A DNA stretch of 64,000 nt from SAR86 cluster bacterium. Lineage in GTDB: Bacteria > Pseudomonadota > Gammaproteobacteria > Magnimaribacterales > Magnimaribacteraceae. The stretch lies in the NCBI GenBank assembly GCA_029268615.1, contig JAQWNM010000015.1, positions 1-64,000 on the forward strand. The letters run 5' to 3'. This document shows, in pieces, positions 1 through 10,789 of this stretch (position 1 is its first letter; every line of letters begins with the position of its first letter). The notes below the pieces were generated by a model. It made no database searches. It worked only from the letters and a program-made list of their open reading frames with translations, and had not been told where the DNA came from. A program made the translations under genes and the position numbers.

Positions 1-294
1 AATTTCATGTTTGATTTTCAAGTTAGTCATAATGGAAGCTTTGAAGGACTTCAAGCTTTTAATCCAGTCACTAACCCTAGTTATACTTTAGCTGGATTGC
101 AGATAGGTTGGTCACTGAATAGTTGGGAATTTATGCTAAATGTAGAGAATATTACTGATGAAGACTACTATGTAGATGTTCAATATTTATCTAACTTATA
201 TACTTTAGATGATAATGGGACAGGTAATATAATCATTGGTACCTTAGGTCAGCCTAGACTTTTCTCAGCTAGTCTTACCTATTATTTTGAGTAA
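1..294 (+). CDS. TonB-dependent outer-membrane receptor, C-terminal fragment
   Basis: The reading frame is open from base 1, so the gene begins upstream of the window and only about 97 C-terminal residues are present. The fragment has the usual end of a TonB-dependent receptor barrel: a strand with the NITDEDYY segment (family form N-[LI]-T-D-x-x-Y), then a GQPRLFSASLTYYF ending with alternating hydrophobic residues and terminal aromatics, as needed for recognition by the BAM machinery. It sits 20 bases before the cupin gene on the same strand, so it may supply the substrate for the downstream enzymes. Substrate cannot be told from this end. Confidence 0.85.
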   Translation, partial: NFMFDFQVSHNGSFEGLQAFNPVTNPSYTLAGLQIGWSLNSWEFMLNVENITDEDYYVDVQYLSNLYTLDDNGTGNIIIGTLGQPRLFSASLTYYFE

Positions 295-314
295 TATTTC
301 AGAGGGAGGGTTTT

Positions 315-770
315 ATGAGTAAAACATTTAATATTCATCAAGATGAACTTGAAGGCAGATATGTCCAAATGGACCAAGTTGAATGGGTAGATTTTCCTGC
401 TGCTTTATGTGAAGGGCCAATTAAATGGAAACTTTTAAATGTTTCTCCTGAACTGGGATCTTGGACTGCAATTTTTGATTGTCCGGCTGAGACTTCCTTC
501 AATAGGCATATTCATATAGGACCTGGAGAGTACTTCTTAACCAAAGGACGTATGGATGTGAGAGGAGGAGATGATGATGGAGGATCTACTGCTATAGCTC
601 CTGGATATGGTTATGAGCCCTGCAATGCAAGACATGACAAGACTTACTTTCCTGAGGATAGTGAGTTCTATATGAATTTTGTGGGACCTCTTAATTTTAT
701 TGATGAAGAGGGCAACACAATAGCATTAGTCACTTGGCAAGATGCTCAAGGTGCTTGGGAAGCATCATAA
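315..770 (+). CDS. ChrR-like single-domain cupin, dioxygenase-like
   Basis: This 151-residue protein is a single cupin resembling the 2,4'-dihydroxyacetophenone dioxygenase / acetylacetone-cleaving group. A likely metal site is visible: H65 and H67 in NRHIHIGPGE, E72, and H107 in NARHDKTY. No signal peptide is seen, so it is cytoplasmic. A GGAGGG ribosome-binding site lies just upstream of the ATG at 315. It is followed by a second, two-domain member of the same family. A C-C bond-cleaving oxygenase on a diketone or hydroxyketone is plausible, but ChrR-like cupins also include isomerases and sensors. Family is fairly sure; substrate is not known. Confidence 0.7.
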   Translation: MSKTFNIHQDELEGRYVQMDQVEWVDFPAALCEGPIKWKLLNVSPELGSWTAIFDCPAETSFNRHIHIGPGEYFLTKGRMDVRGGDDDGGSTAIAPGYGYEPCNARHDKTYFPEDSEFYMNFVGPLNFIDEEGNTIALVTWQDAQGAWEAS

Positions 771-772
771 GT

Positions 773-795
773 TAGAGTCATTATCAAAGACTCTA
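773..795 (+). other. Short hairpin between the two cupin genes
   Basis: A perfect 7-bp inverted repeat (TAGAGTC and GACTCTA) encloses a 9-base loop in the 58-base gap between the cupin genes. The following bases are A/T-rich but contain no clean T run, so it is not a convincing terminator. It could be an mRNA-processing or stability element separating two genes of one transcript. Confidence 0.3.
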
Positions 796-828
796 TGTTA
801 AAAATATTAAATTTTTTGAGGTAAAGTT

Positions 829-1908
829 ATGTCAGAAGCTAAAGCCAATCCGGAATATAATCCATCAGGATATGGTGATTGTATTGATACAAATAGATTG
901 CCTTGGATACCTGTACCAAATGTTAGTGGTATGTTTTTTAAACCGACTAGGGCAAGTTCAGAAAGTGGAATTTTTTCATTAATCTATAAGCTAGAGGCTG
1001 GAACTTCAATGCCTAGTGCAGTTTATTTAGGTGGTATGGATATGTTGATCCTTTCAGGAAAAGCTGAATATGACCAAGATGGTTCAAAGAGTATTTTAGA
1101 ACCTGGAACTTGGGGTTTTATTTCTGCAAATTCTAAAGTAAATGCATTTGTGGCCATAGAGGATACTGAAGTGTTGGCTAATTTTTTTAGTGGAGTCGCT
1201 TTTTTAGGTGACGATGGATCTTTAGAATCATTATTTACAGCAGCAGATGTTTTAAGTCTTGCGAAAGAAAGTAAAGTTACTTTAGTTCCAAATTCATTAT
1301 CAGCTTGTATGGAAGAGGGGACAATTCCATATAGTGGAAATGGCGAGCCTTTGGCAATAGCATCCTCAGATAATGCAAGTAAGATAGTTGATGAGCCAGT
1401 TTCTTCTTCATCAAATGGTTCTGTAACTCATCCTCACTTTGTTGACACACGTTCAGTACCCTGGTTAGTTCTTCCAACAATGCCAGACGTAGGTCTTAAG
1501 CTTCTTAGAGTTAGCGAAGAAACAGGCTTTGTATCTTTGATAGTTCGTCATAATGGAGTAGCTGATCCGCATACTCATTTAGGTGCTAGCGATTTCTTAG
1601 TTTTAACTGGGGCTTTAGGCGTAAGAGCAGGCCCTCCAGAAGGTTACGGTCCTGGAATGTGGTTTTATGAGCCAGCAGGTGCAAGACATGACGCAACACA
1701 AAGAGTTACAGAAGAGGACTTAATATACACAGCAAATATATATGGCCCTTTGTTCTTCGATCAAGGCAAGGGAACGCCAATAGATTACATTTTATCTTGG
1801 ATGGACTACAAAGAGATGGCTGCAGCTTCAGGCGTTAAGCTTGTTCCTAGCACTACTCCAGGTGATTCTAATTTATTAGCTTGGTCTCCACTAAAAGCAT
1901 CTAACTAA
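829..1908 (+). CDS. Tandem two-cupin protein with degenerate N-terminal domain
   Basis: The 359 residues form two copies of the cupin seen in the preceding gene: domain 1 at about 20-155 and domain 2 at about 200-340, joined by a serine-rich linker near 190-198. Domain 2 keeps the metal motif (H248 and H250 in ADPHTHLG, acidic D255, H287 in GARHDAT). In domain 1 the aligned stretch reads SMPSAVYLGGMD, without either histidine, and the later histidine is also gone. It is therefore probably a catalytic domain plus a structural or regulatory pseudo-domain. A GAGG ribosome-binding site precedes the ATG. Probably the same pathway as the upstream single-domain cupin; substrate unknown. Confidence 0.7.
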   Translation: MSEAKANPEYNPSGYGDCIDTNRLPWIPVPNVSGMFFKPTRASSESGIFSLIYKLEAGTSMPSAVYLGGMDMLILSGKAEYDQDGSKSILEPGTWGFISANSKVNAFVAIEDTEVLANFFSGVAFLGDDGSLESLFTAADVLSLAKESKVTLVPNSLSACMEEGTIPYSGNGEPLAIASSDNASKIVDEPVSSSSNGSVTHPHFVDTRSVPWLVLPTMPDVGLKLLRVSEETGFVSLIVRHNGVADPHTHLGASDFLVLTGALGVRAGPPEGYGPGMWFYEPAGARHDATQRVTEEDLIYTANIYGPLFFDQGKGTPIDYILSWMDYKEMAAASGVKLVPSTTPGDSNLLAWSPLKASN

Positions 1909-1921
1909 ATTTTGATAAAGC

Positions 1922-3253
1922 ATGGCTCATAAGAAGCTAGGCTATACTTTAATTACTAATGCTAGGATAATTGATGGTAGCGGAGGAGAGCCCTATTCAG
2001 GACATGTTCTTCTAAATAATAATAGAATAGATTCCATCTTGGATGATCTAAAAGATCTTTCTAAGAGCATCACTATAAGAAAGACTATAGATGCTGAAGG
2101 AAAAACTCTCATGCCAGGACTGATAGATGCGCATTGTCATATAAGTTTTGACGAACCTTCTTCTAATGACGAACTTTTTTTTCACAGAAGAGAAGGTTTA
2201 GCTTCCATCATTGCAAGTCAGAATGCCTATAAGGTTTTACAGGCAGGAGTTACAGGATTTCTTGATGCAGATAGTTTATATAATGTAGGCGTTGATTTAA
2301 GAGACGCAATCGAGAGCGGAATTGTTCAAGGCCCTAGAATGTCTGTAGGAGGGAATGCTTTAATGACTTCAGCAGGAGGCACTGCAGGAAGATTAATTCC
2401 TGACGAAGGAAAAAGGGGCTATGGAGCGGTAGTTAGGAATAAAGATGAAATAATTTTAGAAGTAAGAAGGCAAATAAAGTTAGGAGTTGACTGGATTAAG
2501 ATTCATGTGTCTGGTTTAGTTCCTAGACAAACTTCTGATGGAGAACTAAAAGCATGGAGTTTAGAGGAATTAAAGGTAGCTTGCGACACAGCTCATGAAC
2601 TAGATATTCCTGTAGTAGGTCACTGTAGAAGTGCTGATAGCGTGAAAGACTCTCTTTTAGCAGGTATGGATATGATCTTGCATGGCACGTATATGGATGA
2701 AGAAGGTTTAGAAATACTTGCTAATAAAAAAATACCGATAGTTCCTACTTTTACTTTTCAGGCAAACTTAATAGATTATGCAGATGAAATGGGTGCTTCA
2801 AAAGACTATAAAGAGATTTTTGAAAAGGAAATAGATGACAATATTGAGATTTTAAAAAAGGCTTATAGTCTAGGAGTTCCTTTCTTATGTGGCAGTGAAA
2901 CAGGCTTTTCTGTTACTCCTTACGGTGATTGGCATTATAGAGAGCTAGAAGTTTTTGTGAATAAGCTTGGAATGACTCATTTAGAAGCAATAACTTGTGC
3001 TACCAAAAATGCAGCTCGAGCATTAAGGAAAGAAAAGGAGTTAGGCATGGTAAACCCTGGATTTCTAGCTGACTTGATTCTGATAGATGGAGACCCGTCT
3101 AAAGATGTAACTTTATTAGGAAAAAAAGACTTATTAAAAATGGTATTATTAGACGGTGAAGAAGTTGATTTAACTCCCAGACCAGAAAGACTGAAAGATC
3201 CTTCTGGATGGAGAGTTTCATCCTACTCAGAAAAAATACTAAAGAAATACTAA
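1922..3253 (+). CDS. Amidohydrolase-superfamily metal-dependent hydrolase
   Basis: The 443-residue protein has an N-terminal beta-sandwich part and a TIM-barrel of the imidazolonepropionase/prolidase-like type. Metal-site motifs in order are H71 and H73 (DAHCH), K193 in WIKIH as the likely carbamylated lysine, H234 in VGHCR and H254 in LHGT. The usual catalytic Asp of the GTD motif is replaced by Glu (CGSETG, E326). The C-terminus carries the normal N-P-G-x-x-A-D-L-I-L-I-D-G-D-P segment. The gene starts 13 bases after the cupin gene without a clear Shine-Dalgarno site. It may hydrolyse a cyclic amide, lactone or ketone-derived intermediate; the specific substrate cannot be read from sequence. 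Confidence 0.82.
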   Translation: MAHKKLGYTLITNARIIDGSGGEPYSGHVLLNNNRIDSILDDLKDLSKSITIRKTIDAEGKTLMPGLIDAHCHISFDEPSSNDELFFHRREGLASIIASQNAYKVLQAGVTGFLDADSLYNVGVDLRDAIESGIVQGPRMSVGGNALMTSAGGTAGRLIPDEGKRGYGAVVRNKDEIILEVRRQIKLGVDWIKIHVSGLVPRQTSDGELKAWSLEELKVACDTAHELDIPVVGHCRSADSVKDSLLAGMDMILHGTYMDEEGLEILANKKIPIVPTFTFQANLIDYADEMGASKDYKEIFEKEIDDNIEILKKAYSLGVPFLCGSETGFSVTPYGDWHYRELEVFVNKLGMTHLEAITCATKNAARALRKEKELGMVNPGFLADLILIDGDPSKDVTLLGKKDLLKMVLLDGEEVDLTPRPERLKDPSGWRVSSYSEKILKKY

Positions 3254-3265
3254 AAGAATTAATTT

Positions 3266-3964
3266 ATGTCTAAATTATGTTTAGTGACAGGTGTTGGACC
3301 CGGAACAGGTAAAGCAACCGTCAAACGTTTCAGTGAGTCAGGTTATAAAGTTGCAATGCTTTCTCGTTCAGAAGAAAGATTATCCATTCTAGAAAGTGAA
3401 ATTCCTAATACAAAAGCTTATCCTTGCGATGTTTCTAATGAAGAACAGATGGCTGAAGTAATTTCACTTGTTAAATCAGATTTAGGAATTCCTAATGTCC
3501 TTGTTCATAATGCTGTTAGAGGTGGGAGGGGAAATTTCCTAGAAATAAAACCAAAAGATTTACTTAAAAATTTTGAGATTAATACTATGGGTTTACTTTA
3601 TCTCTCTCGAGGCTTTGCTGAGGATATGCTTAAAAGAGGTAATGGATCTATAATTGTTACAGGGAATACTTCCGCTAGAAGAGGCAAGCCTTGGTTTGCA
3701 ACTACCGCTCCAACTAAAGCAGCTCAAAGAATACTTGCTGAGTCTATTGCTAGAGAGGTAGGACCTAAGGGGATTCATGTATCGTATATTCTTATAGATT
3801 CAGCAATTGATGTACCTTGGACTCGAGAAGCTTGGCCTGACAAACCTGATGATTTTTTTATGAAACCCTCTGCCATTGCTGATGAAATATTCCATATTGC
3901 TCATCAAGATAAATCAGCTTGGACTTTTGATGTAGAAATAAGGCCATTTGCTGAACCTTGGTAA
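3266..3964 (+). CDS. Short-chain dehydrogenase/reductase-like protein lacking catalytic Tyr
   Basis: This is a 232-residue Rossmann protein of the classical SDR family. The nucleotide-binding turn is TGVGPGTGK (residues 8-16), and the NAV segment near residue 82 stands in for NNAG. S136 and K151 are present, but the position four before the lysine, normally Tyr of YxxxK, is T147 (ATTAPTK). Either another residue takes over proton transfer or the protein is not a classical oxidoreductase. The C-terminus is short. The stop codon overlaps the next start in TAATG, so it is translationally coupled to the FAD oxidoreductase. A reductase/dehydrogenase role in the local pathway is inferred. Confidence 0.75.
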   Translation: MSKLCLVTGVGPGTGKATVKRFSESGYKVAMLSRSEERLSILESEIPNTKAYPCDVSNEEQMAEVISLVKSDLGIPNVLVHNAVRGGRGNFLEIKPKDLLKNFEINTMGLLYLSRGFAEDMLKRGNGSIIVTGNTSARRGKPWFATTAPTKAAQRILAESIAREVGPKGIHVSYILIDSAIDVPWTREAWPDKPDDFFMKPSAIADEIFHIAHQDKSAWTFDVEIRPFAEPW

Positions 3965-5340
3965 TGGATATTTTAGAAGAGATTAAATCAATTGTAGGCC
4001 AAAAAGGTATCTTATTGGGTCAAGATGTTTCAAATAGAAAGGCAGGTATATGGATAGAAGAAGGCATTAAAGCTAAGGCCATAGTAAGGCCAAAGAACAC
4101 AGAGGAATTATCTAAAGTATTGAATTTATGTAATCATCACAAGCAAACCATAGTCCCTCATGGAGGTTTAACTGGGCTTGTTCAGGGGGCAATTACAAAT
4201 AAAGAGCAAATAGCTCTTTCAACAGAAAGAATGACTTCTGTGTTAAATATTGACCCAATAGGAAGGACAATGACTGTAGAAGCAGGAGTGCAGTTAGAAA
4301 AAATACAACAAATTGCTAATGAGCATGAATTAATGTTTCCTTTGGATTTAGGTGCTCGCGGATCATGTTCAATAGGTGGAAATATTTCTACCAATGCCGG
4401 AGGAAACATGGTTATGCGTTATGGGATGATAAGAGATTCTATTTTAGGTTTAGAATCTGTTCTAGCCGATGGAAGAATATTATCTTCAATGAATCAAATG
4501 TTAAAAAATAATTCTGGTTATGATTTAAAACAACTTTTTATAGGGACAGAGGGTACTTTAGGTTTTGTTACAAAGGCAGTTCTTAGGTTAAGAGAAAAGC
4601 CTAAAAGTTGTAATACAGCTTTAGCTTCTTTTGATACATTTGATGAAGTAACCAATTTCTTAAAATTGATAGATCAAGGACTTGGAGGTAATTTAAGTTC
4701 TTTTGAAGTAATGTGGAAAGATTACTATAATTTAGTGACTAACCCTCCAGCTAAGAATAACCCTCCAATAGGTCAAGATTTTGCTTATTATGTATTAGTA
4801 GAATCAACAGGTTCAAATCAAGAAAAAGATGAAGTTCATTTTGAGTCTATTCTTGAAGAAGCAATAAATAGAGAATTAATTAAAGATGCTGTAATCGCCA
4901 AATCCCAGACAGAGAGACTTGCTTTATGGTCTATAAGAGATGATGTAGAGCAACAATTTCAGTATGGACCGGTAAAAATATTTGATGTTAGTTTGCCTAT
5001 ACTTTCGATGGAGAAATATATTCAAAATATAAATAATGAATTAAAAAAATATTGGGATTCATTTCATTGTACGGTTTTTGGTCATTTAGCAGATGGTAAC
5101 TTGCATATTATTGTAGGAGTAGGTGCTGGTGATCATAAAACTATCCAAACCATAGAATCTTGCATTTATAAGCCATTAGAGCCTATAGGCGGTGCAATAT
5201 CTGCAGAACATGGCATAGGTATTGAGAAAAAAGACTATTTATCAATTTCTAGGTCAAAGATTGAAATTGATGTCATGAAATCTCTTAAGAATTCTTTAGA
5301 TCCAAATAGAATTTTAAACCCAGGCAAGGTATTTGATTAA
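3964..5340 (+). CDS. FAD-linked oxidoreductase, GlcD / D-2-hydroxyacid dehydrogenase type
   Basis: The protein is 458 residues when started at the ATG at 3964, which shares a base with the SDR stop (TAATG); a TTG two codons earlier is also open but less likely. It has an N-terminal PCMH-type FAD domain (PHGGLTGL and CSIGGNISTNAGG segments) and a C-terminal FAD-oxidase domain with the metal/substrate motif GHLADGNLH and the SAEHGIG signature of D-lactate, D-2-hydroxyglutarate and glycolate dehydrogenases. It oxidises a D-2-hydroxyacid and passes electrons to quinone or a cytochrome. Here it is the last gene of the receptor-cupin island and would oxidise a hydroxyacid product. Confidence 0.87.
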   Translation: MDILEEIKSIVGQKGILLGQDVSNRKAGIWIEEGIKAKAIVRPKNTEELSKVLNLCNHHKQTIVPHGGLTGLVQGAITNKEQIALSTERMTSVLNIDPIGRTMTVEAGVQLEKIQQIANEHELMFPLDLGARGSCSIGGNISTNAGGNMVMRYGMIRDSILGLESVLADGRILSSMNQMLKNNSGYDLKQLFIGTEGTLGFVTKAVLRLREKPKSCNTALASFDTFDEVTNFLKLIDQGLGGNLSSFEVMWKDYYNLVTNPPAKNNPPIGQDFAYYVLVESTGSNQEKDEVHFESILEEAINRELIKDAVIAKSQTERLALWSIRDDVEQQFQYGPVKIFDVSLPILSMEKYIQNINNELKKYWDSFHCTVFGHLADGNLHIIVGVGAGDHKTIQTIESCIYKPLEPIGGAISAEHGIGIEKKDYLSISRSKIEIDVMKSLKNSLDPNRILNPGKVFD

Positions 5341-5363
5341 ATTTTAAAGATTATTGGTATAAT
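5333..5363 (+). promoter_or_regulatory. Extended -10 promoter of the copper protein gene
   Basis: A perfect extended -10 element, TGGTATAAT, ends at 5363. A weak -35 (TTGATT, 5333-5338) lies at the long spacing of 19 bases, which is tolerated for extended -10 promoters. It lies in the 56-base gap before the cupredoxin gene, so this gene and the cytochrome probably have their own sigma-70 promoter separate from the upstream island. Confidence 0.5.
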
Positions 5364-5396
5364 TACTATTTATTTTACAACATAAATAAACTAAAT

Positions 5397-5981
5397 ATGA
5401 AAAATTCATTTTATTTCTTTTTAATTTTCTTATCATTGTCTATTTTTGCAAGCAAAGAGGAAGATGCGATTAGGGAAAGAATTGCCCCAGTAGGCAATGT
5501 ATGTGTTGAAGGCCAAGATTGTGCATCAAAAGTTGTTCAGGTTCAGACATCGCAAATATCTTCAGAAGTTAATTTACCAAAGGTAATGTTATCTGGAGGA
5601 AATGAGCATGAAATAAAAATGCTCAATTTTGGACCAGGAGGTAATATGGTCTTTGATCCTCCTGTTATCAAAGTGTCAAAAGGAGATACCATTCATTTTA
5701 AGGCCACTGATATGTCGCATAATTCTGCTTCAATTGATGGAATGATTCCACCTGGTGCAGAATCTTGGCTAGGAAAAATGAGTCAAGATATAAGTGTGAA
5801 ACTAGAATCTGAAGGGGTATATGTATATCAGTGTGATCCTCATGCCATGATGGCCATGATTGGAGTCATACAAGTAGGAGAACCTTTAAATCTTAAGGAT
5901 GTAAAAGAAGTTGCAAAAGAACAAAAAGTTAGATTTTTAATGAATTCAGAAAGATTAGATGATTATTTGTCTCAACTGTAA
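5397..5981 (+). CDS. Exported pseudoazurin-like cupredoxin
   Basis: The 194-residue protein starts with a signal peptide (basic start, hydrophobic 4-17, cleavage near ASK). A type-1 copper domain covers about 75-162 with ligands H108 (MSHNS), C146, H149 and M154 in the C-x2-H-x4-M arrangement of pseudoazurins. Between signal and copper domain, residues 24-43 contain RERIAPVGNVCVEGQDC, which resembles the leader segment in front of many cytochrome c5 domains. The C-terminal 30 residues are polar and helical. It is a periplasmic one-electron carrier, likely working with the cytochrome c5 encoded next; exact donor and acceptor are unknown. Confidence 0.85.
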   Translation: MKNSFYFFLIFLSLSIFASKEEDAIRERIAPVGNVCVEGQDCASKVVQVQTSQISSEVNLPKVMLSGGNEHEIKMLNFGPGGNMVFDPPVIKVSKGDTIHFKATDMSHNSASIDGMIPPGAESWLGKMSQDISVKLESEGVYVYQCDPHAMMAMIGVIQVGEPLNLKDVKEVAKEQKVRFLMNSERLDDYLSQL

Positions 5982-5988
5982 ATTAAGC

Positions 5989-6013
5989 TAAAAGGATAGT
6001 GAGTCTCCTTTTA
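5989..6013 (+). other. Weak hairpin between copper protein and cytochrome genes
   Basis: An 8-bp inverted repeat (TAAAAGGA and TCCTTTTA) surrounds a 9-base loop directly after the cupredoxin stop codon. The 3' arm itself contains T4 but no T run follows. It may act as a partial terminator or a 3'-end stabiliser that sets the ratio of the two carriers; this is a weak call. Confidence 0.3.
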
Positions 6014-6050
6014 AATAGACTTTTTCTTGAATAAAAGGAATAAAGTAAGA

Positions 6051-6374
6051 ATGCATAAAACTTCTTTATTAATAATACTGTATATCCTTTTTGCTGCACC
6101 AGCAAATTTACTCGCAGAAGTTCAGAAAGGAGAAATGGTATACAAAAGAGCTTGCGGCACATGTCATGGAATAGGTGTGGCTGGAGCTCCAAAAATAGGA
6201 GATAAAGCTTCTTGGACTGTGATAAACGAAAAAGGTTTAGATATTCTTTTGCATTCAGTAGTTAATGGTTTAAATGGAATGCCCCCTAAGGGACTTTGCA
6301 TGAATTGTTCTGAAGAAGAAATTAAGCAAGCAATAGAATATATCCTGGTCAAGTCTGGTCTAAATTTAGAATAA
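6051..6374 (+). CDS. Cytochrome c5-like monohaem carrier
   Basis: I choose the ATG at 6051 (107 residues) because it gives a clean signal peptide (MHKTSLLIILYILFAAPANLLA); a TTG 24 bases earlier would add a charged stretch. The haem site is CGTCH (C35, C38, H39). The axial Met lies in GMPPKG, followed by the CMNCSEEEI segment whose two cysteines form the disulfide typical of the c5 family. It is a periplasmic electron carrier, possibly between the quinol oxidation system or the upstream FAD enzyme and a terminal oxidase. Its 3' end overlaps the convergent yigB gene by 26 bases. Confidence 0.87.
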   Translation: MHKTSLLIILYILFAAPANLLAEVQKGEMVYKRACGTCHGIGVAGAPKIGDKASWTVINEKGLDILLHSVVNGLNGMPPKGLCMNCSEEEIKQAIEYILVKSGLNLE

Positions 6375-7050
6375 GATCTTTAATTTCTAGCCAATTTTTT
6401 GCCTCTAAGAATTCTGCTTTTTCTAATTCCCATTTTTTTTCAGTCGGGTTGAACCAGATTGCTTGAAAGCCAGAATTGATAGCTCCCAAAACGTCATGAG
6501 AAGGGTTATCTCCAACATGACAGATCTCAAACGGCTGTCTTTCAGTCTCACGAATTATCGCATGAAAGTTTTCTGGAGAAGGCTTGCTAGAATTGAGGTC
6601 AGATGATGAAAAATTAAAATCAAAGAACCTGTCCAGACCTATTTTTTTTATGTCAGCATTACCATTGGTTAGACCACCTAATATATATTTTTTGTTAAGA
6701 GATTCAAGCACCTTTAAGACATCATCATAGAAGGTAACATTATTTCTCGCTTCAAAAAAAACTTCAAAAGCTTCTTTACCAATCTTAGAGGCTTCTACTG
6801 AGCTATAGCCAGCTCTTATTGCTAGTTCTGTGATAGATAAAGTTCTTAGTTCAGATAATCTATTAATTAAGTCCTTGTCTTTATAGATTAAATCTTTTCT
6901 TATATTCAACAAAATATCTTCACTGAGTAATATTTCTACAGGAGAATAATTTTCTATAAGCCATTTTCTGGTTATTTTTTCTGCCTCCATGATAACAGGA
7001 AGGATTGGCCATAAAGTATCATCTAGATCAAAGCTTATGACTTTTATCAT
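6349..7050 (-). CDS. yigB: HAD-family phosphatase YigB
   Basis: The 233-residue HAD hydrolase has the four motifs in order: FDLDDTL (nucleophile Asp at 8), GLTNG, a lysine in SSKPSPE, and HVGDNPSHDV. The helical cap lies between motifs I and II. It is placed directly after xerC, as yigB is in enteric and pseudomonad genomes; the E. coli protein dephosphorylates the riboflavin precursor 5-amino-6-(5-phosphoribitylamino)uracil and also other sugar phosphates. Start ATG overlaps the xerC stop by 4 bases (ATGA), indicating translational coupling. Confidence 0.85.
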   Translation of the reverse strand: MIKVISFDLDDTLWPILPVIMEAEKITRKWLIENYSPVEILLSEDILLNIRKDLIYKDKDLINRLSELRTLSITELAIRAGYSSVEASKIGKEAFEVFFEARNNVTFYDDVLKVLESLNKKYILGGLTNGNADIKKIGLDRFFDFNFSSSDLNSSKPSPENFHAIIRETERQPFEICHVGDNPSHDVLGAINSGFQAIWFNPTEKKWELEKAEFLEAKNWLEIKDLILNLDQT

Positions 7051-7946
7051 GATTTATTTTTCTTCGCCCTAGGATGAGTTTTATCATAGACTTTTGTTAA
7101 ATGTTGGAAATCTAATTTTGTATATATTTGGGTTGTAGCTATATCAGAATGACCTAGCATTTCTTGAACAGCTCTTAAATCTCCACTGGACTCTAAAACA
7201 TGGCTAGCAAAAGAATGTCTTAACATATGAGGATGAAGATCAGGAAGACCTCTTTTCTCACTAATTTTTTTTATCCTTAATTGCACGGATCTATGACCTA
7301 AGCGGTAACCCTTATTATTAATGAATAAGGCGTTAGTGGGATCTTTTAGATTTATCTTTATTTCCCGGGAACGCAACCATAAATTCAAAGATTGAATTGC
7401 TTTAATGCCTATAGGAACTATTCTTGTTTTATTTCCTTTTCCTAAAACTCGACAGGTTTGTTCTTTTATAGAAAGGTCTTCAATATTAATATTACAAAGC
7501 TCAGCAAGCCTCAATCCTGAAGAATAAAAAAGTTCAATTATTGCCTTATCTCTTATGTCTACCCAGGTTTTTGGTTTATAGTCTAAGAGCTTAAAGACCA
7601 TATCAGCATCCATTGCTTTTGGAAGCAATTTTGGGCTTTTAGGGCCTTTGATATGAGCTAAAGGGTTATTATCAATCTCATCTTCATTAATTAGGTATTT
7701 AAAAAAACTTCTTATTGAAGATAAGAGCCGCTGAATACTTTTTTGGCTAAGCCCCTTTCTCCTTTCCTTATTTATGAATTGCCTGATATGTTTATCTTGT
7801 ACTTCTTTCCATCTCCCTATATTCGATTCATATAATTCAGAAGATAATTTATTCAAATCTCGCTTATAGCCATCTAATGTATGACTAGAGTATTGCCGTG
7901 TAATTTTTAATTGATTAAGAAAGGATTCAATGCGCTTATTTAGCAT
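7047..7946 (-). CDS. xerC: Tyrosine recombinase XerC
   Basis: The 299-residue recombinase has an N-terminal SAM-like DNA-binding domain (about 1-95) and a C-terminal catalytic domain with the full set R146 (SGLRLAEL), K170, H240 and R243 (HPHMLRHSF), H266 (LGHSD) and nucleophile Y275. Length matches XerC/XerD (about 298). Its place between the DUF484 gene and yigB, downstream of dapF, is the classical xerC locus, which separates it from XerD. With XerD it resolves chromosome dimers at dif. No dif-like site was recognised in this window. Confidence 0.95.
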   Translation of the reverse strand: MLNKRIESFLNQLKITRQYSSHTLDGYKRDLNKLSSELYESNIGRWKEVQDKHIRQFINKERRKGLSQKSIQRLLSSIRSFFKYLINEDEIDNNPLAHIKGPKSPKLLPKAMDADMVFKLLDYKPKTWVDIRDKAIIELFYSSGLRLAELCNINIEDLSIKEQTCRVLGKGNKTRIVPIGIKAIQSLNLWLRSREIKINLKDPTNALFINNKGYRLGHRSVQLRIKKISEKRGLPDLHPHMLRHSFASHVLESSGDLRAVQEMLGHSDIATTQIYTKLDFQHLTKVYDKTHPRAKKNKS

Positions 7947-8630
7947 CTAAATATTTTTCTTATCTATTATCTTGCTAAGAATTTCCAAAATAAAATCTAA
8001 GAATATAGTATCTTTATTCTTATTATACTTGCCTTCTAGGTGACTTCCAAACACTAACACACCTGAAACAGAGGTGCATTTAAGTTTTAAAATTGAGATA
8101 TTCTTAATAACAGAATCTATTTCAAAGATCTTACGGACTTGTTTTGGGTTCACTGGGCCAAAGTAATTATTTTTAGATTTTAAAATATTTTCAATCTCTC
8201 TTTGTAGATTTTTTTCTTTTATTCTACCTACAGGCAAAAGATTATTAATTTCATCTATAAAAAAATATACTTTACAATCTGTAACTCCTAAATCGGAGAT
8301 AAAGGTTGTTTCGACCTCCTCAATAACATCAGTTAACAAGTTACTTTCTAATAAATTTATGATAAGTTTTTTGCATATTTTTAAGAGCTCCTCATTATTT
8401 TTTGCATTTTCAAGAAGGGTATCTAGTTTGTTAGTAGTAACATTAGAGCTTTTTCTCAGTAATTCTACTTGTTTTTGTATTAAGGAAACAGCTGCTCCAG
8501 AATCATGAGATATATCTAAGGATTCTAGGATATCAGGATTTCTTTTTAAGAAATCAGGATTTAGAGCAAGAAATTCTCTAACTTTATTATCAGAAAGATT
8601 TTCTTTCATATTAGAATTCAAAGTGTCCAT
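7947..8630 (-). CDS. DUF484 family protein
   Basis: The protein resembles the DUF484 family, which lies between dapF and xerC in gammaproteobacteria. The N-terminal NKVREFLALNPDFL segment is the family's characteristic start; a GAF-like fold follows. Function is unknown. The start is uncertain: ATG codons at 8642, 8630 and 8609 are in frame. I took 8630, which has GGAG 12 bases upstream and overlaps dapF by 20 bases; 8609 follows the dapF stop by one base. The gene abuts xerC with no gap. Confidence 0.78.
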   Translation of the reverse strand: MDTLNSNMKENLSDNKVREFLALNPDFLKRNPDILESLDISHDSGAAVSLIQKQVELLRKSSNVTTNKLDTLLENAKNNEELLKICKKLIINLLESNLLTDVIEEVETTFISDLGVTDCKVYFFIDEINNLLPVGRIKEKNLQREIENILKSKNNYFGPVNPKQVRKIFEIDSVIKNISILKLKCTSVSGVLVFGSHLEGKYNKNKDTIFLDFILEILSKIIDKKNI

Positions 8631-9420
8631 GAAAATGGGCATCTCCGAAAGCTTTTAGACTTTTAGATTTTGTATATTCTATTAATAATTTTCCCTCTTT
8701 AAAAAAGACATTTACTCTACTTTCCAAAAGATTTAATTCATTACCAATGACAACTGCTGCGCATGCACCACTTCCGCATGCTAAAGTCTCGCCTACACCC
8801 CTTTCATAGACCCTAAGATTTAGACTATTTCTGGAGGTTATGGATGCGATACCAAAATTAACTCCTTCTGGAAATTGCTTATCTTCTGAAAGGTCTAAAC
8901 CCCATTTTTTTAGGGGAAATTCTTGTATATCATCCAAGAAAGCTACTATATGAGGGTTGCCAATGGATGCAATACCTACCTCTAATTTTTTATCTCCCCT
9001 TTTTAAGACATAATTCTCAGAGGGTTCATGAAGAAAAGGAAGATCAGAAGGTTTAAATCTAGGTAAAGGCATAGAAGTAGAAAAAATTCCATCATTTAAG
9101 GATTCTATATGCCAATTACCTCCATCAGTTTCTACTATAAACTTCTCGTCGGTAAGTAGTTTGTTTTCTACAACGTATTTTGCGAGACATCTTGAACCAT
9201 TGATACAGTTTTGCGCTATTGAACCATCACTATTGAATATAGAAGTCCTAAGATCATTTTCTCGATTATGGGGAGGCTCGATAGTTAAGAGCTGGTCAAA
9301 GGAGGTTATTTTTTTTTTTGAAAAATCTTTAATTTGATCAGGTGAGATAGAATTATTTTCAGTAAGTAGATCTAGAATTAAAATTTCATTTCCCAAAGAT
9401 GACATCTTTATGACCTTCAT
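8611..9420 (-). CDS. dapF: Diaminopimelate epimerase
   Basis: The 269-residue enzyme converts LL- to meso-diaminopimelate for lysine and peptidoglycan. Both active-site cysteines are present: C72 in QNCINGSRC and C215 in ETLACGSGAC, with the GNPH motif near 155. Two normally conserved spots differ: the N-terminal GNDF motif reads GNEI, and the first cysteine is followed by Ile where Gly is usual (C-G-N-G). Length is normal (about 275). It lies downstream of lysA by 6 bases and upstream of the DUF484 gene, so it is part of one operon. Confidence 0.93.
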   Translation of the reverse strand: MKVIKMSSLGNEILILDLLTENNSISPDQIKDFSKKKITSFDQLLTIEPPHNRENDLRTSIFNSDGSIAQNCINGSRCLAKYVVENKLLTDEKFIVETDGGNWHIESLNDGIFSTSMPLPRFKPSDLPFLHEPSENYVLKRGDKKLEVGIASIGNPHIVAFLDDIQEFPLKKWGLDLSEDKQFPEGVNFGIASITSRNSLNLRVYERGVGETLACGSGACAAVVIGNELNLLESRVNVFFKEGKLLIEYTKSKSLKAFGDAHFHGHFEF

Positions 9421-9426
9421 ATTATC

Positions 9427-10662
9427 TTAAATTTCTTTTTCTAGTTTAACCATATCTTCAAATGACTCTTTTCTTCTAATAAGCTTAACAGTTGTCTCTT
9501 CAACTAAGATTTCAGGTGGTTTTGTTCGACTATTGTAGTTAGAGCTCATAGTAAAACCATAAGCACCACTGCTATGTATTGCCAATATGCTTCCTTCCTT
9601 TATAGCTAAGTTTCTTTTTTCCCCAAAAATATCTGCACTCTCGCATACAGGGCCTACAACAGTATAATTCTGAGGTGATAGATCTAAGTCTTCAATTGAA
9701 GTGATATTATGCCAAGCATTATATAAGGCAGGTCTTAAGAGATCATTCATACCTGCATCAATAAAAGCAAAAGATGAATTTTCTGTTTTTTTAATTAGTT
9801 CAACTTTTGTAATTATTACTCCCGAATTTCCAACTATGGACCTCCCCGGTTCTAGAATTAATTTATAGTTTTCACCTAACTCTTGTACTAATGAACTTAC
9901 TATATTTTCAATAGATATTTCATCTTCTTGGTTATAAGTAATTCCTATTCCTCCGCCTAAATTAAGGTGAGTTATATCTAATCCTATTTCAATAAATTCC
10001 TCAGCACAAATTTTTACCTTTTCTAGGACTTCTAAGAGAATAGAAGGATCTGTTATTTGAGATCCAATATGGCAACTTATTCCATTTAAAGCGATTCCTT
10101 CTAAGTTTTTAGCATCTTTTGCAATATCTATCATTACTTCCTTTGAAAGGCCAAACTTACTATCCTTCAAGCCTGTAGAAATATACTCATGAGTTTGTGC
10201 TGAAATATCTGGATTTAGTCTCAACGAGCATTGGACCACTATTTTTTTATCCACGGCTAATTGATTAAGTTTAATCAGTTCACTATAGGACTCTATGTTT
10301 ATAAATAAAATATCAGAGTCTATTGCAAATTTTAGTTCTTCCGTGGTCTTTCCTACCCCAGAAAAAACTATCTTTTTTGGATTTGCGCCTGCGAGTAGGG
10401 CTTTTCTAATCTCATTTGCAGACACAACATCAAATCCAGAATCTAAATCAGCTAATAGTTTAAGAATCTGTAAATTTGAATTTGATTTAACTGCAAAGCA
10501 AATCATATCTTGCGCTCTTAGCGAATGAAGATATTTCTGATAGTTTTCTTTAATAACAGATCCAGAATAAATATATGCAGGAGTTCCAAATTCTTCTGCT
10601 AGATCAGTTAATTGAATTTCATCAACGCAAAGAATATTATTTTTTTTGTTAAAACCTTTCAT
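9427..10662 (-). CDS. lysA: Diaminopimelate decarboxylase
   Basis: The enzyme makes lysine from meso-diaminopimelate using PLP. Started at the ATG at 10662 it has 411 residues, close to the family's 415. The PLP lysine is in FAVKSNSN (K59), with the HLNLGGGIGITY glycine loop, LEPGRSIVG, and the catalytic Cys motif GPVCESADIFG. The frame remains open upstream, but those codons lie inside lptM. The chosen start overlaps the lptM stop by 14 bases, which implies translational coupling. Epimerase dapF follows 6 bases later, giving the last two lysine steps in one operon. Confidence 0.94.
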   Translation of the reverse strand: MKGFNKKNNILCVDEIQLTDLAEEFGTPAYIYSGSVIKENYQKYLHSLRAQDMICFAVKSNSNLQILKLLADLDSGFDVVSANEIRKALLAGANPKKIVFSGVGKTTEELKFAIDSDILFINIESYSELIKLNQLAVDKKIVVQCSLRLNPDISAQTHEYISTGLKDSKFGLSKEVMIDIAKDAKNLEGIALNGISCHIGSQITDPSILLEVLEKVKICAEEFIEIGLDITHLNLGGGIGITYNQEDEISIENIVSSLVQELGENYKLILEPGRSIVGNSGVIITKVELIKKTENSSFAFIDAGMNDLLRPALYNAWHNITSIEDLDLSPQNYTVVGPVCESADIFGEKRNLAIKEGSILAIHSSGAYGFTMSSNYNSRTKPPEILVEETTVKLIRRKESFEDMVKLEKEI

Positions 10663-10789
10663 GTTCAGGGTATTGAAGATTAGCACTTTCAGGCATTATA
10701 AGAGGTCCTTTAATTCCGCATGAACTTAATGCAAAAAACAAGCTAAAACCAAGACATATTTTGATAATTGTATATTTAAGATTTTTCAT
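10649..10789 (-). CDS. lptM: LptM (YifL) small lipoprotein
   Basis: A 46-residue gene found by reading the space between argH and lysA. It begins MKNLKYTIIK, has a hydrophobic signal segment and the lipobox LSSC (C24), then GIKGPL. C-G-x-K-G-P-L immediately after the lipid-bearing cysteine is the family signature of LptM/YifL, which in gammaproteobacteria is encoded next to lysA/dapF. LptM is an outer-membrane lipoprotein that assists maturation of the LptD LPS translocon. The start overlaps the argH stop (ATGA) and the end overlaps lysA by 14 bases. The signature, position and overlaps together make the call strong despite the small size. Confidence 0.9.
   Translation of the reverse strand: MKNLKYTIIKICLGFSLFFALSSCGIKGPLIMPESANLQYPEHERF

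Follow-up and report, generated by a model that had tools for sequence, protein, structure and literature searches.

Which compound does a marine bacterium take up and break down with a locus in which a TonB-dependent receptor is followed by five enzyme genes? This question is raised by the first 5,340 positions of a 64,000-nucleotide stretch of DNA—here called the window—which forms the start of contig C15 (JAQWNM010000015.1) in the genome of a SAR86 cluster bacterium (assembly GCA_029268615.1; 1.77 Mb on 18 contigs, 96% complete). An initial annotation, made from the sequence alone, had offered an aromatic, a diketone, or a terpenoid compound as the substrate. The diketone is favored here by the sequence and active site of a Dke1-like cupin and by a recurrent gene set; otherwise this three-way proposal was a guess. 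With a probability of roughly 0.65, the region represents the right-hand half of a SAR86-family catabolic island that would import and degrade a putative β-dicarbonyl or a precursor of it.

One basis of this reading is the single cupin encoded at 315 to 770. Its product matches 3bal—Dke1, the acetylacetone-cleaving enzyme—with E=1.2e-55 and 81 of 136 residues identical, and 2o1q with 95 of 140. All eight Dke1 residues checked (H62, H64, E69, Y70, R80, E98, H104, and T107) are kept. The three iron-binding histidines H65, H67, and H107 (Dke1 H62, H64, and H104) and the outer-shell residues Y73, R83, E101, and T110 (Dke1 Y70, R80, E98, and T107) are invariant in six aligned family sequences, the window's included; the roles of these active-site residues are taken from the available part of PMC4019311. 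By homology and its complete active site, the protein belongs to the Dke1 family and is predicted to cleave a β-diketone to an acid and a 2-oxoaldehyde.

The initial annotation saw two dioxygenase-like cupins at this locus. Both proteins are indeed Cupin_7 members, the first one of the Dke1 family; the second is a double cupin whose N-terminal domain lacks the HxH motif. Its C-terminal domain retains H248, H250, R266, E281, H287, and T290—one intact metal site, whose pattern is invariant in 10 orthologues—and bears Phe256 at the position of Tyr70 of Dke1 in an alignment made by eye. The sole match in the PDB at E<=0.001 is 2o1q (E=8.5e-8), and the double cupin is no more than a candidate for a second Dke1. 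Another single cupin, of the ChrR type and about 28% identical to the window's Dke1, is encoded at C16:38341-38721 of the same genome (G000); weak matches of similar length to it are present in G002, G015, and G017.

The window begins inside the receptor gene because contig C15 begins there. The first 141 bases of C15 equal the last 141 bases of contig C17 (86,024 bases), and reading through this overlap gives a single receptor open reading frame (ORF) of 744 amino acids. We infer the C17–C15 join from this overlap, and it is supported by six relatives (G003, G013, G017, G019, G020, and G022) in which uncut contigs carry glyoxalase, receptor, and cupin in the same order, whether Dke1 is present or not. 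While the 97-residue tail in the window matches no Pfam family by itself, the 694-residue part on C17 matches Plug and TonB_dep_Rec_b-barrel above cut-off; the best NCBIfam model of the receptor, TIGR01783, stays under its cut-off (128.7 of 223.5). Extending the region upstream—a check suggested in the initial annotation—completes the receptor and adds a divergent arm on C17, headed by a glyoxalase I and comprising an SnoaL_4 protein, a Rieske oxygenase, and an Amidohydro_2 protein nearest to ACMSD. The genes beyond these, to the left, encode two SDRs, two additional SnoaL_4 proteins, a Rieske ferredoxin, and another Rieske oxygenase. By the look of the sequence, positions of about 60,000 to 76,000 on C17 form a longer catabolic stretch with several Rieske oxygenases, SDRs, an acyl-CoA dehydrogenase, an AMP ligase, a nitroreductase-like gene, an MFS gene, and a second TonB receptor.

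The protein heading the arm, of the VOC type, is a glyoxalase I (lactoylglutathione lyase): it scores 206.5 bits on TIGR00068, with a cut-off of 120, and 98 of 155 residues are identical to 1fro, which we take to be human glyoxalase I. Its metal ligands are kept as Q23, E90, H117, and E163, standing at Q33, E99, H126, and E172—presumably the ligand positions of the human enzyme. One gene only of the TIGR00068 type was found in the genome, and a glyoxalase II is encoded on contig C4 (298.2 bits, cut-off 200.8). A catechol dioxygenase identity of the VOC protein is rejected on the basis of the TIGR00068 score above cut-off together with solved glyoxalase I matches over 155 residues; the ring-cleavage model TIGR03213 reaches 20.6 against a cut-off of 366.45.

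How closely does this glyoxalase follow the cupins? Presence was assessed in 61 genomes—the window's own and 60 relatives—at thresholds of E<1e-80 for the glyoxalase, E<1e-70 for the Dke1 cupin, and E<1e-180 for the double cupin. Glyoxalase I is present in 12 genomes, which are exactly the 12 bearing the Dke1 cupin (six: G000, G001, G002, G015, G017, and G022) and/or the double cupin (10: G000, G002, G003, G012, G013, G017, G019, G020, G022, and G032). No cupin of either kind is seen at E<=0.001 in the other 49 genomes. Of these, 14 show just a distant, shorter glyoxalase match (E 8e-7 to 3e-18), and in the remaining 35 no match reaches E<=0.001. Within the 12 island genomes, the gene diverging from the glyoxalase is the receptor in 10 and Dke1 in the remaining two, the amidohydrolase lies within the island in 10, and the Rieske–SnoaL–ACMSD–SDR arm is seen in nine, with the contig of G032 ending inside the arm. 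G015 carries a second glyoxalase copy elsewhere, and G002 bears the double cupin and Dke1 on different contigs. Co-occurrence of the families, another check proposed at the outset, was found: in relatives, the receptor and one or both cupins are repeatedly accompanied by the amidohydrolase and, in many cases, by the FAD gene.

A second set of data comes from the best 80 of 154 Dke1 relatives found in named genomes, which include four SAR86-titled records and near-duplicates and whose neighbors were counted by tblastn. A glyoxalase I of the window's type lies within 10 kb of Dke1 at 19 of these loci (13 within 1 kb), and a short GloA-like form at 12 more (8 within 1 kb). Of these 31 glyoxalases, 21 are in the nearest 12% of flanking bases, which corresponds to p=4e-13 if relatedness is ignored. 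All four long-type glyoxalases scanned outside SAR86 (L099, L104, L106, and L129) pass the TIGR00068 cut-off. A receptor like the window's is present at 17 of the 80 loci (18 at another threshold), and an AraC-type regulator at 24. The near Dke1 clade, made up of 13 loci and the window (support 94, not starred), differs from the other 67 loci in its glyoxalases (11 of 13 vs 20), receptors (11 of 13 vs 6), and D-2-hydroxyacid dehydrogenases (8 of 13 vs 3). The Dke1 tree, built on few columns and with many open forks, requires at least 14 changes of the glyoxalase state.

In Henriciella (L099), glyoxalase I and Dke1 are fused in one ORF of 382 amino acids (TIGR00068 at 187.2 bits, and Cupin_7). 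The fusion is followed by a D-lactate dehydrogenase (754 bits, cut-off 391), an acetate-CoA ligase (1016, cut-off 724.95), and a pyruvate carboxylase (1703, cut-off 1114.45), and by homology the locus would be a route for both products of an acetylacetone-type cleavage. In Aurantiacibacter and Croceicoccus, glyoxalase I, Dke1, and a D-lactate dehydrogenase stand in a row, the dehydrogenase directly after Dke1.

Some loci deserve mention on their own. At L075:6201-6665 and L096:8823-9299, Dke1 is adjoined by another, distinct Cupin_7 protein that lies between the receptor and glyoxalase I; a close match exists also in L085, and the protein may correspond to the double cupin of SAR86. L060, titled Rhodobiaceae bacterium NP1070, carries a Dke1 that clusters with that of the window at 81 to 82% identity. 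No match to the glyoxalase, the receptor, or the FAD protein was found within 10 kb of it, and the record may reflect a lateral transfer or a wrongly labelled bin. Metagenome-assembled genome records titled Klebsiella pneumoniae (L082, L084, L092, and L118) also carry Dke1; these titles look wrong, and three of the four genes group with environmental Gammaproteobacteria.

In the proposed route, the receptor would bring the compound across the outer membrane. A Rieske oxygenase, an SnoaL-like protein, an SDR with YxxxK, and two amidohydrolase-superfamily enzymes might then make the β-diketone; building or releasing it is the most likely task of the Rieske, SDR, ACMSD-like, and prolidase-like enzymes, whereby their order and roles are guesses. 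Cleavage of the diketone to a carboxylic acid and a 2-oxoaldehyde, with addition of O2, would fall to the Dke1-type cupin, to the intact double-cupin domain, or to both, as expected from homology and the complete Dke1 active site. Homology and linkage suggest that the divergent glyoxalase I, with glyoxalase II from C4, would convert the 2-oxoaldehyde to a D-2-hydroxyacid, from which the FAD enzyme—by homology and partial linkage—might form a 2-oxoacid for central metabolism.

This chemistry is known from the degradation of acetylacetone, in which, according to the available text of PMC7226712 and PMC4019311, Dke1 is followed by a glyoxalase to yield lactate. The initial claim that no standard pathway has this set is half correct: such a route is described, but the revealing glyoxalase lay outside the window. 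With the route of Acinetobacter johnsonii (Dke1, EC 1.13.11.50), the island shares the Dke1 cupin with its 3-His site and outer shell, the glyoxalase I, and an exit by an enzyme of the D-2-hydroxyacid dehydrogenase type; unlike that route, the window's set is embedded with a TonB receptor, a double cupin, amidohydrolases, a Rieske oxygenase, and SDRs. Henriciella has the same chemistry by homology and a receptor of the same type (44% identity), but differs by its fused enzymes and by a Dld-type dehydrogenase where the window has the GlcD type; the probes detected there neither a Rieske gene nor a double cupin, and an amidohydrolase match of just 28 to 29% about 7.4 kb away. The TonB-linked island of SAR86, the double cupin, and the fusion did not turn up in the open-licence literature searched, which was judged mostly by titles, and the main text of the 2024 SAR86 comparison (PMC11582366) contains 0 occurrences of cupin, glyoxalase, or amidohydrolase.

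Several observations weigh against a diketone island of this kind. Half of the island genomes (6 of 12) are without Dke1 and bear only the double cupin, a candidate cleavage enzyme, and since the genes are tightly linked, the phyletic match of glyoxalase and cupins is partly one event and not 12 independent ones. At 49 of the 80 Dke1 loci there is no glyoxalase in the flanking DNA examined, and a flank is shorter than 3 kb at 18 of the 80. Scans of six of the 12 short forms put all of these six below curated cut-offs (NF050074 at 123–137 of 165, TIGR00068 at 71–85 of 120), although glyoxalase models are their best matches. Once corrected for relatedness, the test of glyoxalase against dehydrogenase or receptor has no power (6 usable pairs, median p 1), hence the uncorrected Fisher test (10 of 31 vs 1 of 49, p=2e-4) carries no weight. 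The FAD gene, finally, is not tied to the island: it has no strong match in G012 and G020 (74% and 51% complete), lies elsewhere in G002 and G003, and is also carried by two genomes that lack the island, G005 and G008.

This last point leads to the explanation that competes best, though we consider it rather unlikely: two units might be adjacent by chance, namely a receptor–cupin–amidohydrolase operon and an older SDR–FAD(–cytochrome c) pair, with the FAD protein as a housekeeping D-2-hydroxyglutarate dehydrogenase. The protein is of the D-2-hydroxyacid dehydrogenase type, with both Pfam domains above cut-off, and matches 3pm9, 6lpn, and 8jdc nearly end to end; 6lpn, a mitochondrial D-2-hydroxyglutarate dehydrogenase, is its second-best solved match, 8jdc is a probable D-lactate dehydrogenase, and the gene is single copy in the genome. 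Glycolate oxidase GlcD, its best NCBIfam model (TIGR00387), is rejected at 285.9 bits against a cut-off of 567.9, and because this score is far under the cut-off, the substrate is left unnamed. In G002, the SDR (69%) and FAD (63%) genes stand without cupins beside relatives of the window's cytochrome c, HAD, xerC, DUF484, and dapF genes, and Dke1 is on another contig. Conversely, 8 of the 12 island genomes have the FAD gene next to the cupins, and in several of them it lacks those housekeeping neighbors on the stretches read—directly after Dke1 in G001 and G015, and after the amidohydrolase in G013, G017, G019, G022, and G032. Beyond SAR86, the gene immediately after Dke1 is of the GlcD type in L068 and encodes a D-lactate dehydrogenase of the Dld type (a different subfamily, with a Lact-deh-memb domain) in L094, L099, and L116.

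Window positions 3266 to 10686 keep the order SDR, FAD, cytochrome c, HAD, xerC, DUF484, dapF of G002 contig C1 (L147), and by look of the sequence argH and lysA also belong to this collinear block. The island seems to have been inserted beside this conserved SDR–FAD–housekeeping block. Classical SDRs bear the catalytic motif YxxxK; the window's SDR shows a gap at the Tyr column and keeps Lys151, as does the G002 protein. Its place in the pathway is uncertain, and membership of the SDR–FAD pair as a whole is less sure than that of the other genes. One fixed operon of five enzymes is weakened as an idea by the G002 synteny and the FAD-gene distribution, and the initial view of five genes in one pathway is not secure, with an SDR devoid of its catalytic Tyr and an SDR–FAD pair that sits apart from the cupins in G002.

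It is more doubtful that the cupins act on an α-hydroxyketone or aryl-2-oxoacid next to a glyoxalase that serves general methylglyoxal defence and is linked by chance. Dke1 also cleaves maltol and phenylpyruvates, as stated in PMC4019311, and a sole glyoxalase of its type would suit such a defence; the 49 cupin-free genomes, many of them incomplete, nevertheless do without this glyoxalase, and both the fusion and the repeated glyoxalase–Dke1 adjacency in unrelated groups speak against chance. Aromatic ring degradation by a Rieske dioxygenase, an SDR, and an ACMSD-like decarboxylase acting on an aromatic acid, with the VOC protein as catechol 2,3-dioxygenase, is improbable: these genes are conserved in the island and the available part of PMC11582366 reads SAR86 catE/gloA genes in that way, but the VOC protein passes the lactoylglutathione lyase cut-off and fails TIGR03213, and the cupins and the glyoxalase–Dke1 fusion would stay unexplained. 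Aromatic steps could also precede β-diketone cleavage, so that this explanation is only partly a rival.

The description of a receptor followed by five same-strand enzyme genes with short gaps is borne out by the ORF list (Table 1): stop-to-start gaps from the receptor tail through the SDR gene are 20, 58, 13, and 12 bases; the SDR gene then runs a few bases into the FAD gene. The FAD gene starts with TTG as listed, an ATG two codons downstream being equally good. Promoter-like sites (19, shuffle mean 22.2) and terminator-like sites (3, shuffle mean 3.4) are not commoner in the region than in shuffled sequence; since these counts are at shuffle level, the search gives no support for a single transcript. 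Enzymes of the amidohydrolase superfamily bind metal by HxH, Lys, His, and His and carry a catalytic Asp. In the window's protein, H71, H73, K193, H234, and H254 are invariant in 10 aligned orthologues, and Glu326 replaces the Asp of 2qs8 and 3mtw in 10 of 10. The pseudoazurin behind the FAD gene is probably not part of the pathway set.

Table 1. Features at the start of the window; Pfam matches of the five enzymes are all above cut-off
Feature	Positions	Strand	Remarks
TonB-dependent receptor, 3' end	1..294	+	whole gene 744 aa, start on C17 (position -1940 if joined)
Dke1-family single cupin, 151 aa	315..770	+	β-diketone dioxygenase by homology; Cupin_7
Double cupin, 359 aa	829..1908	+	Pfam Cupin_7 x2
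Prolidase-like amidohydrolase, 443 aa	1922..3253	+	Pfam Amidohydro_1; nearest 2qs8, 3mtw
SDR-fold protein, 232 aa	3266..3964	+	adh_short; nearest solved structure 3h7a
FAD-dependent D-2-hydroxyacid dehydrogenase type, 460 aa	3958..5340	+	FAD_binding_4 + FAD-oxidase_C
Pseudoazurin (flank)	5397..5981	+	TIGR02375 128.3 bits, cut-off 109.85
c-type cytochrome (flank)	6027..6374	+	53% match also beside FAD gene of relative G002

The non-heme iron enzyme Dke1 has been studied extensively and is known from work on acetylacetone, a compound that according to PMC7226712 does not occur naturally as a metabolite. The linkage of its relatives to glyoxalase I, D-lactate dehydrogenases, and TonB receptors describes a testable natural pathway and places this putative pathway in an abundant, hard-to-culture ocean lineage. 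Some of the SAR86 catE/gloA genes that PMC11582366 reads as catechol 2,3-dioxygenases may be glyoxalases in a diketone route. Tentatively, and at somewhat less than even odds, SAR86 and its relatives might hold a new TonB-linked pathway for a natural oceanic β-diketone, or for a ring compound converted to one, in which glyoxalase I would be catabolic and would not serve detoxification. If true, oceanic β-diketones would supply the physiological substrate class that the Dke1 family has lacked so far.

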